Made by a program: the position numbers and the translations under genes
The notes under the pieces: generated by a model
Databases searched by the model: none
Told to the model about the DNA's origin: nothing
What the model saw: the letters and a program-made list of their open reading frames with translations, nothing else
Part shown: piece after piece, positions 2,883 through 18,101 of the stretch
Position numbering within the stretch: position 1 is the stretch's first letter
Layout of the letters: each line of letters begins with the position of its first letter
Source of the DNA: a virus
Virus record (IMG/VR): IMGVR_UViG_3300009001_000114
Coordinates: 1 to 20,906 of that record
Reading direction: 5' to 3' (one strand)
DNA: 20,906 nt

Positions 2883-3170
2883 ATGAAAGCAACACTACTT
2901 ATACTCGCAGTAATGGCGTCCCCAGCACTCGCGAACTTCCCTGTAAAACAGTCACAGACTTGGCAAGTGACTGAGGACAAGATCTATGTATCCAACCAGA
3001 GCGAAGTTCTTTGGGAAATCGAACACACATGCGACAATTATAACCTAAAAGAAGGGTCCGTGTCAATAGTTGTCAACGAGTCACGAGTACGAAGAAACTC
3101 GCAACTAGAGTTAGTGGTCAATGGTCGTCCTCAGATGTGTCAGGTTGAGCAGATTCGTTACCTTCGATAA
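2883..3170 (+). CDS. Small exported (periplasmic) protein with two cysteines
   Basis: A 95-residue protein with a clear Sec signal peptide: MKATLLILAVMASPALA followed by NFPVKQ, with the A-x-A site at about residues 15-17. The mature part of about 78 residues is beta-rich and has exactly two cysteines (C50 and C86), which would form one disulfide in the periplasm. No family recognised. It is one of only two plus-strand genes, preceded by GGAG and a possible late promoter. It runs head-on into the lipoprotein gene, sharing the last 53 bp in opposite orientation. The open frame continues upstream, but the signal peptide fixes this start. Confidence 0.82.
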   Translation: MKATLLILAVMASPALANFPVKQSQTWQVTEDKIYVSNQSEVLWEIEHTCDNYNLKEGSVSIVVNESRVRRNSQLELVVNGRPQMCQVEQIRYLR

Positions 3171-3432
3171 CAACTCGCTTGTAGGACTCAATACACTCAC
3201 CGACATCAGTACCGCCGTAGTTGGTCCAACCATTGAGAATCATGGTGCCACCTGCGGCGATACCTACCCCAATAGCTGCAGCAGGACCAGCAACTAGCGA
3301 CGCTGCGGCAGCAGTAGGAACACCGACGATAAAACCAGAGGGGTAGGCACAGAAGTCAGTGCCGTAAGAGTTGCTCCACTCCATGGTGGCGCAACCGTGT
3401 AGGAAGGGTAGTAATAACAAAAACTTCTTCAC
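3118..3432 (-). CDS. Small lipoprotein with glycine/alanine-rich segment
   Basis: A 104-residue protein starting with GTG at 3432 and preceded by GGAGAAG. The N-terminus is a lipoprotein signal (MKKFLLLLPFLHGCAT) with the lipobox Cys at residue 14, so the mature protein should be lipid-anchored. Residues about 33-67 form a glycine/alanine-rich hydrophobic stretch (AAAASLVAGPAAAIGVGIAA) that could insert in a membrane. Two further cysteines, C28 and C80, flank that stretch. The tail is acidic. Spanin, superinfection-exclusion or envelope roles are conceivable, but nothing decides between them. Its ribosome site sits right after the tmRNA coding piece, so it may be read through from the RNA promoter. 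Confidence 0.75.
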   Translation of the reverse strand: MKKFLLLLPFLHGCATMEWSNSYGTDFCAYPSGFIVGVPTAAAASLVAGPAAAIGVGIAAGGTMILNGWTNYGGTDVGECIESYKRVVIEGNESAQPDTSEDDH

Positions 3433-3493
3433 AAACTTCTCCGAATTAGTGCCGAGACTTTGGTAACAAGGCTCTCGGCGAACCCCGTGAGGT

Positions 3494-3538
3494 TTACGCT
3501 GCTAGCGCAAAGTCCTCAGTATAAACGTCATCGTTTGC
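3494..3538 (-). other. tmRNA tag reading frame (ANDDVYTEDFALAA)
   Basis: The resume codon GCA is at 3538-3536 and the TAA stop at 3496-3494. It encodes ANDDVYTEDFALAA, to be preceded in the product by the alanine carried on the tmRNA. The start AND and the end ALAA are typical of proteobacterial tags; the hydrophobic ALAA end is the ClpXP/ClpAP degradation signal. The tag is longer than the 10-residue E. coli type and does not resemble the cyanobacterial tags I remember. Confidence 0.92.
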
Positions 3539-3624
3539 GTTTACTTTAGGTTGCTCTGTTTAACGTCAGTGCTTGACGATTCTCCACTTTGATACTTAGC
3601 ACCTGTCGAATCCATTACACCCCC

Positions 3625-3700
3625 ATCATAAACACACTGCTGCCCAAGATTGCGACTCTACAGGACTTACTGACGCCGAAACGTACTCAGTGTGTTTATG
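3625..3700 (-). repeat. tmRNA internal transcribed spacer with 13-bp perfect inverted repeat
   Basis: CATAAACACACTG at 3627-3639 and its exact complement CAGTGTGTTTATG at 3688-3700 bracket the spacer between the two tmRNA pieces. The arms begin beside the two strands of the acceptor stem (the inner arm includes the CCA end), so in the precursor they extend the acceptor helix into one long hairpin, closing the permuted loop. Mature ends would be made by RNase P at 3624/3625 and by 3' trimming at 3699. Confidence 0.88.
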
Positions 3701-3812
3701 GTGGAGGTGGGGAGAGTCGAACTCCCGTCCAGATCACCTTTCTCTCTGCTTCATCGAATAAAACGCCCCTACGATTTGAGCATTGTTAAGAGGCTTGAGG
3801 GGCTTGTTAAAT

Positions 3813-3928
3813 AGGTGCGGGGATTCCACCCGCTGCTAATCAAACCGAAACGAGTTTCACGCACGGTGATTAATCTGCCCAGGATTTTAAATCCTTAGGA
3901 CTTTATAGATTGCTAGGATTCCGCACCT
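3813..3928 (-). other. Structured, tRNA-Leu(UAA)-like element
   Basis: A 116-nt stretch closed by a perfect 8-bp helix (AGGTGCGG at 3928-3921 with CCGCACCT at 3820-3813). Inside are an anticodon-like arm AAGGA-TTTAAAA-TCCTG, giving anticodon UAA (Leu), a long extra arm (TAATCACCG with CGGTTTGATTA, capped by GAAAC/GTTTC), and a T-arm-like hairpin GCGGG-TGGAATC-CCCGC. The upstream stretch GAGGTGCGGAAT resembles class II tRNA starts. The T-loop lacks the invariant T55 and C56, the extra arm is far longer than in any normal tRNA-Leu, and the closing helix overlaps the T-stem, so a normal charged tRNA is unlikely. It could be a decayed tRNA-Leu, or a leader structure of the tmRNA precursor. Confidence 0.4.
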
Positions 3929-3948
3929 CGCTTAGGAATCGGTCAGTC

Positions 3949-3978
3949 ACTTGGAAGCAACGAGTTTATGTTCCAAGT
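3949..3978 (-). repeat. Leader hairpin at start of the RNA transcript
   Basis: ACTTGGAA (3949-3956) and TTCCAAGT (3971-3978) form a perfect 8-bp stem with a 14-nt loop. It lies about 25 nt after the predicted start of the minus-strand transcript from the 4009-4037 promoter. It may protect the 5' end or guide processing. No T-run follows, so it is not an intrinsic terminator. Confidence 0.5.
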
Positions 3979-4008
3979 TATGTTCGCTCTGCCCAATCTA
4001 TATTATAT

Positions 4009-4037
4009 AGTATAATTGATTACGCTACAGAAGTCAA
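4009..4037 (-). promoter_or_regulatory. Sigma-70-type promoter of the tRNA-like/tmRNA unit
   Basis: TTGACT (4037-4032) and TATACT (4014-4009) are separated by exactly 17 bp, each with one mismatch to consensus. Transcription would start near 4002. The -35 box lies inside the last codons of the 76-residue membrane protein and the RNA unit follows at once, so the structured RNAs have their own promoter besides any read-through. Confidence 0.72.
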
Positions 4038-12427: not shown

Positions 12428-13371
12428 TAATTAACTCCATAATACCATTTGTACCATTTATAGAATTCCTCGATTCCCTGTTCGACATCAACCTTCGGTT
12501 GGTAACCGAGTTCTTGTAGTTTAGTAACGTCACTCCACGTTTCTAGCGTGTCTGCAGGATGACGCTCAACAAACTTTATTTTCCCTTCCTTACCGCAGTT
12601 CTTCTCAATTTCATTCACAAAGTCTAGAAGCGGAACTTGTCTCCCTCTACCAATATTAAAAATTTCGCCTGAAAGAATATTGGCATTGATTATGATCTCA
12701 ATACCATCCAGGATATCTTCGACATATGTGAAATCTCGTTTCATGTCTCCGTAATTATATACCTGAATTTCCTTTCCGTCAATGATGTTTTTCGTGAATT
12801 GAAACAGTGCCATGTCAGGACGACCCCACGGACCATATACCGTAAAGAAACGAAGTCCCGTATTATTAAGTTCTGAAACTTTAAACTGACACTCATTTGC
12901 ATACTTGGTGTAAGCATAGGCATTCAGTTGGTGTCCGTCTACTTGTTCCTCAACCCAAGGGAGAACCTTAGTCCCACCGTAAACGCTGCTGGTAGAGGCA
13001 TAGATTACCCTTGGAGGATTATCTAGAGTCTTACAAGCATCAATCAGAGACTGCGTGCCATCAATATTATTTGAGTGGTAGTTTGCCTCTTTACCAAAAG
13101 AATCTCTAACGCCAGCATGTGCTGCAAGATGGACAATAAGGTCAGGACGAAATTCATTTAGAATTTTGACCATACCGTCATAGTTTCTAATGTCTTCAAC
13201 TTTGACGTCTAGACCAAACTCCTTTACCCTAGCAACCTTTAATTCGGGGTCGTAAAGATGGTTATTGAAGTTATCAATCCCAATGCAGTCAATCTGTTTA
13301 TCTTTCAACCGTTTGAGTAGTTGAGATCCAATAAACCCTGCTGCTCCTGTTACAATAATTTTTTGAAACAT
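12427..13371 (-). CDS. NAD-dependent epimerase/dehydratase (UDP-glucuronate 4-epimerase-like)
   Basis: 314 residues of the extended short-chain dehydrogenase family. The NAD-binding motif TGAAGFIG is at 8-15, HLAAHAGVRDS at 81-91, the active-site serine lies in YASTSSVYG (124-132), and the catalytic YxxxK is Y152-K156 in AYAYTKYANE. The HAGVR element and the GRGRQVPL stretch are typical for UDP-glucuronate epimerases. It adjoins the dehydrogenase gene (TAATG), giving a plausible UDP-glucose to UDP-glucuronate to UDP-galacturonate path, which would feed the glycosyltransferase at 16839-17633 or a host enzyme. Confidence 0.92.
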   Translation of the reverse strand: MFQKIIVTGAAGFIGSQLLKRLKDKQIDCIGIDNFNNHLYDPELKVARVKEFGLDVKVEDIRNYDGMVKILNEFRPDLIVHLAAHAGVRDSFGKEANYHSNNIDGTQSLIDACKTLDNPPRVIYASTSSVYGGTKVLPWVEEQVDGHQLNAYAYTKYANECQFKVSELNNTGLRFFTVYGPWGRPDMALFQFTKNIIDGKEIQVYNYGDMKRDFTYVEDILDGIEIIINANILSGEIFNIGRGRQVPLLDFVNEIEKNCGKEGKIKFVERHPADTLETWSDVTKLQELGYQPKVDVEQGIEEFYKWYKWYYGVN

Positions 13372-14316
13372 TTATCCATTCCTATAGACGTATTCTAGTG
13401 CACCATCTGCTTCACGTTCGATTGGACGTCCTTCATACCAGTTTCCCGTATCCTTATCAAACTGACGACAGAGTTCTGCAATCTGGTGAGCAGTAATAGG
13501 GTATCCACACTTCACAGCATTGCCCGCAAGGGCAACCATAATCTGATACATCTTGTGATACCAACCAGTGCTGCTGATGTTTCGATACTCGACTGCTAGC
13601 ATTCGTGGCCAGAAAGGACAATCATGGTATGAAGTCCAACGAATGTTGGTATTATGTAGCGAATTCTTACGATGCTCAATCACTGCTTTCTGTAGTTCAG
13701 GAGGCAGACGATCCATGAAGGAGTTGCCAGTCTTCTCAGTGTAGGGATGCTTGGCAATCAACTCCGAAACGTTTAGAGGATTGCCACCATTATGAACAAA
13801 GATAAAGTTATTGTCACAAGGGTATTGTGCTGGAACGTAATACATTCTAGCAAGGTCTTTTGTCTGGGGATCGCCGATCTCTCCGAGTTCCGTGTTAAGA
13901 GCATACCAGAAAGGTTTGATTCGCTCCTGCTCAATCTTTTCGTCCGTTCTAAAAACGATACGGAATTTCGGATAAGTGCTGCTAGAAGAAGCAGTGCTAT
14001 AAACCACGAAATCATAATTATTAAATTTACTAATCAATGCCCCTTTGAGATCATCTACCAGGACAGGAAAATCGTGATCATCGACATCAACAGCACACCA
14101 AGAACCCCAATAAGAAGTAGATCGATTACTACGCGTCGAACCGTCCTCGAAAACAGCAGGACTAATGAGAGGACTAGAATTATTTCCACCTTTTTGCCCC
14201 TTTACTTGAGATATCTTATATAACCAGTTTACAAAAGAATCCCAAGTCTCAAAGGACAGACGCCGATGAGTCTTGTTGTCAAACTGATTGCGAAATATTG
14301 TAAGTTCGTAGTTCAT
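13372..14316 (-). CDS. Primase-like protein (archaeo-eukaryotic primase/PrimPol fold, putative)
   Basis: 314 residues, overlapping the gp43 stop in an ATGA junction. [15 protein letters not shown] (about 69-83) offers a D-x-D pair, and [20 protein letters not shown] (about 105-124) resembles the [S/T]xSSxxxPKxR[I/V]xF strand of AEP/PrimPol-type primases. The next part ([18 protein letters not shown]) also fits that family. It looks nothing like the zinc-ribbon/TOPRIM primase gp61 of T4. Position next to gp43 in the replication operon makes a priming or lagging-strand role likely. I have not aligned it, so the fold call is inference. The C-terminal half (about 190-314) looks like a helical PrimPol C-terminal extension. 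Confidence 0.62.
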
Positions 14317-17672: not shown

Positions 17673-18101
17673 CTATTGAATAGGAATAACCTTCGGCTTC
17701 TTCTCTTCAGGAAGTTCAACCTTCAGCAGCACATATAGGATACCGTTCGTATAGGACGAACTGACAACGTTCACATGCTCATTGACTTTGAAGGACTTAC
17801 GGAACTTCTTGGTAGAGATACCCTTGTGAAGAAACTCACAGGGTTCGTCATCACGAGGAGACTGCTCGCCAGAGATGTGCAGGTCAGTGCCGTGATGCTC
17901 AACCTTCAGATCATCTTTTTCAAAACCTGCCAGTGCAAACTCTAGTTGATAGGTGTACTCATCGTACTTGACTAGATTATGCGGAGGATAGTTTTGTTGA
18001 TTAGACGGTTTACTAAGTAGTTCCATATCACGAAGAAGGTTGTCGAAACCAATAAAACGGGGAAGTGCCCCAGCAAAGGGCAAAAGATCATGGTTAGTCA
18101 T
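17673..18101 (-). CDS. hsp20: Small heat shock protein, Hsp20/alpha-crystallin family
   Basis: 142 residues. It is an ATP-independent holdase chaperone. The alpha-crystallin domain covers about residues 45-132: YQLEFALAGFEKDDLKVEH, LHISGEQ, KKFRKSFKVNEHV and TNGILYVLLKVELPEE, all standard strands. The end VIPIQ gives the I-x-I anchor used in oligomer assembly. Length is usual for the family, and many marine T4-like phages carry such a gene. AAGGAG precedes the ATG. It is driven by a perfect consensus promoter and by a late promoter, and closed by its own terminator, so it is a single-gene unit expressed early and late. Confidence 0.95.
   Translation of the reverse strand: MTNHDLLPFAGALPRFIGFDNLLRDMELLSKPSNQQNYPPHNLVKYDEYTYQLEFALAGFEKDDLKVEHHGTDLHISGEQSPRDDEPCEFLHKGISTKKFRKSFKVNEHVNVVSSSYTNGILYVLLKVELPEEKKPKVIPIQ

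Follow-up and report, generated by a model that had tools for sequence, protein, structure and literature searches.

The locus analysed here raises the question whether a virus carries its own circularly permuted tmRNA gene, where this gene may have originated, and what it might do in conjunction with the sequences next to it. The window, that is the whole stretch of DNA analysed, is a virus record of 20.9 kb (20,906 nucleotides). Its minus strand carries replication genes of the T4 type, and genes for DNA polymerase, UvsX, a DnaB-like helicase, dCMP deaminase, thymidylate synthase, and Hsp20 were detected there. According to the DNA polymerase, the closest isolate is phage C48C1 of the Kyanoviridae (66% identity), followed by cyanophages with about 48% identity. 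C48C1 contains genes for tRNA-Asn and tRNA-Leu; no annotated tmRNA was present in the stretch of C48C1 examined, and no abiF RNA was found. The gene for Hsp20 is common to the window and C48C1. At 2265-2477, a protein of 70 aa is encoded that in PADLOC weakly resembles PglZ, over about 60 residues at the PglZ N-terminus (E 4e-4). Two of the protein genes are positioned as follows:

17673-18101, minus strand: Hsp20 small heat-shock protein, adjoining the DNA polymerase region
3118-3432, minus strand: reading frame of 104 aa with GTG start (MKKFLLLLPFLHGC..), lipoprotein-like, directly 3' of the tmRNA

Searches of Pfam, PHROGs, and PADLOC gave no match to the 104-aa reading frame, and its position is taken by other genes in relatives.

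In a preliminary description, positions 3444-3810 had been assigned to a phage-borne, circularly permuted tmRNA. A search with the permuted tmRNA model, a check proposed there, yielded a match to RF04321 (tmRNA_permuted) at 3759-3494 on the minus strand with 113.6 bits, clearly above the cut-off of 47 (E 7e-22), and ARAGORN also predicted a permuted tmRNA on this strand (3403-3791) with the tag ANDDVYTEDFALAA. It is virtually certain that the segment from 3759 to about 3451 (minus strand) represents a permuted tmRNA, consisting of the following parts:

about 3759-3451, minus strand: permuted tmRNA (ARAGORN and Rfam RF04321)
3699-3759, minus strand: acceptor piece with T-arm, acceptor 3' strand CACCUCC, and encoded A-CCA end (RF04321, T-stem covariation)
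3625-3698, minus strand: intervening spacer of 74 nt, with cassette F inside a 13-bp stem
3451-3624, minus strand: coding piece with acceptor 5' strand GGGGGUG, UUCGAC D-loop motif, mRNA-like part, and 3' hairpin GCCGAGA/UCUCGGC (RF04321)
3494-3538, minus strand: tag frame ANDDVYTEDFALAA followed by a stop, ALAA-type end (ARAGORN)

The order on the minus strand is thus acceptor piece, spacer, and coding piece. The complete tag frame (3538-3494) and the full pairing of the acceptor strands GGGGGUG and CACCUCC, including the G3-U wobble, were confirmed. The span given before does contain the tmRNA, but an abiF RNA at 3765-3802 (minus strand), located within the same span, had gone unnoticed.

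The same tmRNA gene is present in six related virus contigs (L034, L035, L036, L024, L051, and L053). In all seven sequences, pairing is complete in the acceptor stem, the T-stem, the 3' hairpin, and the hairpin preceding the tag, and the T-stem is changed on both strands (GGGAG/CUCCC, AGAGG/CCUCU, GGCGG/CCGCC, GUGGG/CCCAC). The gene has therefore been kept intact as an RNA. Since tmRNA genes serve as integration sites, prophages hold fragments of them (PMC9004378), and the locus could in principle be decayed prophage debris or part of a host contig, not a phage gene in use. This is extremely improbable: seven phage contigs have a full-length tmRNA in which base changes preserve the pairing, and the window itself has T4-like genes for DNA polymerase, UvsX, DnaB-like helicase, and dCMP deaminase.

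In the window, nothing is missing from the tag frame, the ALAA end, the G3-U identity element, or the pairing, and all seven tmRNAs have retained them. Judged from these features, the phage tmRNA is likely to be active. Instead of acting mainly in ribosome rescue, it might compete with or regulate trans-translation of the host, by sequestering SmpB or by tagging host proteins for recycling. Such a role would have a precedent in a tag-less tmRNA-like RNA of phage DS6A, cited in PMC11915505 as an inhibitor of the endogenous tmRNA in E. coli, but it is rather doubtful for the RNA described here, as intact tags, ends, identity elements, and helices throughout the seven sequences are what is expected for an active tmRNA.

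Two-piece tmRNAs are already known from phages. In a survey published in 2022, 53 of 133 unique phage tmRNA structures were of this type, 50 of the 53 coming from marine or aquatic samples, and the tmRNAs of phages Mosig and Melnitz are among them (PMC9004378). The gene is indeed phage-borne and permuted, but with 53 such structures listed, the earlier statement, which named only the one-piece form for phages, was incomplete. Comparison to the subtype models placed the tmRNA of the window closest to the beta type with 76.5 bits (cut-off 84), followed by the alpha model RF01849 with 42.1 (cut-off 50) and the cyano model with 40.4 bits (cut-off 70); none of the cut-offs was reached. The searches with the alpha and cyano models that had been recommended were thus both negative, and a donor among the alphaproteobacteria, as initially proposed, is unsupported, the alpha score being also below that of the beta model. 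The tmRNAs of Mosig and Melnitz match best to the alpha model (67.6 and 106.7 bits, respectively). A search for the tag as an exact degenerate pattern gave no match in the genomes of about 85,000 species of bacteria and archaea, and hence no bacterial source for the tag among these genomes. In agreement with the earlier description, no SmpB was found in the window, a 21-kb fragment. SmpB was not found in the relatives of the window, in Mosig, or in Melnitz either, and host SmpB would therefore be needed.

The 13-bp inverted repeat described across the spacer (CATAAACACACTG/CAGTGTGTTTATG at 3688-3700 and 3627-3639) was also recovered and lies within a 22-nt pair that is 91% complementary. The spacers checked in other phage tmRNAs, those of Mosig and Melnitz included, have a fully paired closing stem of 11-13 bp at the same place, with changed base pairs. 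Taken with the model matches, this goes well beyond chance. In L060, a phage tmRNA of the beta type, the spacer is just 8 nt long; the closing stem is therefore not obligatory. Four different hairpin cassettes occur in the seven tmRNA spacers, cassette F being found in L034 as in the window, cassette D in three contigs (L035, L036, and L053), and cassettes E and G in one each, L024 and L051, respectively. Copies of cassette F are also found free-standing outside tmRNAs in L003, L035, L036, and L053, and cassette D likewise occurs outside tmRNAs. By sequence comparison, the tmRNA spacer is an exchangeable cassette slot; what lies between the two pieces of a permuted tmRNA may thus be more than dead sequence. 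The spacer of the Melnitz tmRNA (L071:1375-1500) seems to contain a small reading frame (ATGTTTAAATGGTTATC..) with GGAG ahead of it.

AbiF is a HEPN ribonuclease toxin of abortive infection and a proposed ancestor of Cas13. The RNA overlooked before belongs to the family of its antitoxins and is located 5 nt upstream of the acceptor piece, where the RF04321 match starts:

3765-3802, minus strand: orphan abiF RNA (RF03085), antitoxin-type RNA of the AbiF toxin, 50.8 bits (cut-off 37), full-length match (1-37)

A protein of the Abi_2/AbiF family (PF07751) was detected neither in the window nor in 34 other virus records, fragments for the most part, nor in the complete phages Acj61, Mimi, and CRP-143, all of which harbor orphan abiF RNAs. 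In the positive control, phiC2, the same protein model identified AbiF with an E value of 8e-51, and 75 nt separate the end of the abiF RNA from the gene downstream of it. As no AbiF gene is found just downstream of the RNA, the locus is classed only as an orphan antitoxin-type RNA and not as an AbiF system. One could still imagine a complete toxin-antitoxin system that the phage uses against rival phages and whose toxin gene lies in another part of its genome, since the window is a 21-kb fragment and prophages such as phiC2 hold complete systems (PMC12373285). Yet in the described system, RNA and gene are close neighbours, the RNA coming first, and Abi_2 is lacking in 35 contigs with abiF RNA or tmRNA as well as in the three complete phages, which makes this arrangement very unlikely.

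A pattern scan detected the abiF core in 32 IMG/VR contigs; since these viral copies were retrieved with a fixed core, core identity among them is by construction. Thirteen of the 32 copies have a tRNA or tmRNA gene within 500 bp, where randomly placed copies in these contigs would give 3.4, and all 13 are on the same strand as the tRNA or tmRNA. The other 19 are not near a tRNA in the available DNA, most of these contigs being fragments. Among 33 distinct abiF RNAs, the outer stem has on average 5.2 bp, whereas 1000 shuffles of the arms gave a mean of 3.37 (sd 0.21, maximum 4.03). The outer stem is thus kept by compensatory change, above all shuffles. Covarying stems and the retained core were also observed in unrelated phages, T4-like Acj61, Arthrobacter phage Mimi, and Roseobacter phage CRP-143, although the RNA of Mimi is below the Rfam cut-off despite having the core.

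Variants of the RNA were seen as well. In L053 (230-335), an abiF-like RNA upstream of a tmRNA has, in place of the hairpin loop between AAGCCTCT and ATGCTCAAAT, a longer inserted segment, several tens of nucleotides in size. In L003 (3180-3330), L005, L008, L018, L021, L022, and L031, the core is followed by a conserved structure of roughly 100-200 nt (TGTAAGTCC..GATAATG.GGATAA); this composite RNA usually adjoins tRNAs and is not in Rfam. Two abiF RNAs about 1 kb apart (L067:2501-2537 and 3528-3587) are present on an unannotated plasmid of Phocaeicola massiliensis (OY726013). No usable match for an abiF RNA beside AbiF in bacteria was obtained from the E. coli and plasmid records examined. 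A region of lactococcal phage sk1 has been reported to protect against AbiF (Rince 2000, as cited in PMC12737573). A search of sk1 gave no RF03085 match, and the idea that sk1 provides another abiF decoy was consequently rejected.

Work on bacterial systems indicates what such an RNA could do. RCd22 of C. difficile neutralises AbiF in cis and in trans by direct binding, for which its stem structure is required (PMC12373285). In the solved PbAbiF-AbiFr complex (8VZ6), a bulge of the antitoxin inhibits the RNase, and one RNA is bound per monomer (PMC12737573). By analogy, the abiF RNA of the window may be a decoy against AbiF, an interpretation to which we give slightly better than even chances. 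It could also be a passenger without a role against defence next to an ordinary acquired phage tmRNA, for instance a terminator or a processing signal in a tRNA-type operon. Phages often carry tRNAs and tmRNAs (PMC9004378), and a T-rich run following the abiF stem in L004, L011, L019, L032, and L067 could terminate transcription. A terminator, however, would not require the abiF core of roughly 23 nt, nor the covarying stems together with this core in Acj61, Mimi, and CRP-143; moreover, the tmRNA follows the abiF RNA in the window, and no terminator-like site was found. A mere passenger is therefore considered unlikely.

Upstream of the abiF RNA, further elements of the RNA array are located:

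4009-4037, minus strand: sigma-70-like promoter TTGACT-17-TATACT, 10 of 12 consensus matches, ahead of the RNA array
3904-4002, minus strand: cassette B, structured RNA of about 99 nt with outer stem TATAGATTG/CAATCTATA, no Rfam family
3814-3903, minus strand: cassette C, RNA with three hairpins, no Rfam family

Two promoter-like sites were found compared to 1.2 expected, which is weak taken alone. TTGACT or TTGAAT, 17 nt apart from TATACT, is likewise present in L034, L036, L024, and L053, and L053 keeps the site although the overlapping gene for a 76-aa protein has been lost. The site resembles a host sigma-70 (early) promoter, and its position next to the array argues for early expression; retagging late in infection had initially been suggested. 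Cassette B has copies with 98-99% identity in L035, L036, and L037/L015. Cassette C was identified in 15 IMG/VR contigs, including large arrays of up to 28 tRNAs, and also in two Aeromonas phages. Most copies adjoin tRNA genes or are located between them, and both copies of the Aeromonas phages are next to tRNA genes. Paired substitutions were observed in its first (CCAC/GUGG, CCGC/GCGG, CCUUGA/UCAAGG) and in its last hairpin (GCAGG/CCUGC, GCGGG/CCCGC). An exact degenerate pattern for cassette C was also searched in the approximately 85,000 genomes of bacteria and archaea, with no match. Cassettes A, B, C, D, F, and H are shuffled as units among the relatives, in which they occur in differing orders and combinations, beside tRNAs in L037/L015 and L003.

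Between 3300 and 4300, no known ribozymes or riboswitches were detected up to an E value of 5, and neither ARAGORN nor RF00005 indicated a tRNA in the window, cassette C and the element at 3811-3929 included. The conserved core of cassette C is not tRNA-like. A tRNA-Leu-like RNA formed by cassette C and its flank through acceptor-like pairing of AGGTGCGG and CCGCACCT was considered and rejected, because this pairing spans the separate cassettes B and C and no tRNA match was found. L018 contains a long array of hairpin cassettes between two tRNAs (12560-13950), with recurrent outer stems resembling TTTAGAATAGGC/GCCTATTCTAAA.

Taken together, the locus is reasonably well explained, though by no means conclusively, as an operon of phage RNAs, expressed early, that serves ribosome rescue and at the same time supplies a decoy antitoxin against a host AbiF. 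The tmRNA, the abiF RNA, their common strand, and the promoter-like site can be read directly from the DNA; the events that would follow are predicted. The operon would comprise, in this order, the promoter, cassette B, cassette C, the abiF RNA, and the permuted tmRNA, and host RNA polymerase would transcribe the array as one unit early in infection. In the tmRNA precursor, the acceptor stem would adjoin the 13-bp spacer stem, and tRNA-processing enzymes of the host would excise the spacer, yielding the two-piece tmRNA and small RNAs. The tmRNA could then, with host SmpB, rescue ribosomes stalled on broken mRNA and add a ClpXP-type tag ending in ALAA. The abiF RNA, having no AbiF partner, would act in trans, occupying a putative host AbiF and thereby blocking abortive infection, comparable to pseudo-ToxI of PhiTE. 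Both functions would be complementary, since cleavage of mRNAs by AbiF or a similar RNase, once activated, would leave ribosomes stalled.

That the other cassettes are decoys, too, is a doubtful extension. In its widest form, which must be regarded as speculative, aquatic T4-like and other large phages would maintain exchangeable arrays of structured RNAs in tRNA/tmRNA operons as an anti-defence arsenal, with cassettes A-H as decoys and the abiF RNA as the sole member whose target, AbiF, can be named. If this were true, the excised tmRNA spacer would be a built-in slot releasing one RNA each time the tmRNA is processed.

The tmRNA alone adds one more two-piece phage tmRNA, of a beta-like subtype; of greater interest is its combination with the abiF RNA. 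With an AbiF antitoxin RNA standing alone in a phage tRNA/tmRNA operon, RNA-based counter-defence against a toxin lineage thought to be ancestral to Cas13 can be tested directly and cheaply. Conserved non-tRNA RNAs in phage tRNA arrays, such as cassette C, provide a comparative handle on the role of such RNAs, including T4 stable species 1 and 2.

These T4 RNAs (rnaC and rnaD) are, like the cassettes, structured non-tRNA RNAs, located at the edge of a tRNA cluster; comparison by eye to cassettes A-H and to the abiF core revealed no sequence similarity. The closest counterparts of the tmRNA are those of Pelagibacter phage Mosig (MT647606) and Methylophilales phage Melnitz (MZ577097), which share with it the permuted gene, the encoded CCA, the tag, and G3-U (PMC9004378). 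Both phages are T4-like Kyanoviridae in which, as in the window, SmpB was not found, and all three spacers have a fully paired stem of 11-13 bp beginning with CATAAACAC. The subtype differs, the tmRNA of the window being closest to the beta model and those of Mosig and Melnitz to the alpha model. The spacers also differ, with the 74-nt cassette F in the window, a short hairpin in Mosig, and, in Melnitz, a longer segment that includes an ATG reading frame, and so do the neighbours, an abiF RNA upstream in the window and a glutamine riboswitch overlapping the tmRNA 3' end in Melnitz.

The abiF RNA belongs to the same family, RF03085, as the RNAs of RCd22-AbiF (PMC12373285) and PbAbiF-AbiFr (PMC12737573) and shares with them the covarying stem and the core of AAGCC and GCUCAAAU. 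In its CUCAAAU sequence, C and U have the spacing of the inhibitory residues C32 and U38 of AbiFr, to which they were mapped by spacing only. Unlike these systems, it has no detectable AbiF gene, consists of a single motif, whereas the functional work on RCd22 used two motifs in one RNA (PMC12373285), and is part of a phage tRNA/tmRNA operon. An abiF sRNA, presumed functional, has been described in the T4-like cyanophage S-CREM1 (PMC9964418); it matches RF03085 with 51.6 bits. This paper does not use the word tmRNA, and no decoy mechanism is proposed in the passages compared; further orphan phage abiF RNAs may have been reported outside the open-access literature covered here. The nearest functional parallel is pseudo-ToxI of PhiTE (PMC3475682), a phage mimic of a type III antitoxin RNA that, like the abiF RNA of the window, occurs without its toxin. 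For pseudo-ToxI, blocking of abortive infection was demonstrated, and the same effect is predicted here. In PhiTE, however, the toxin is ToxN, not AbiF, and repeat expansion is needed, whereas the RNA in the window contains one full conserved motif that is kept in unrelated phages.
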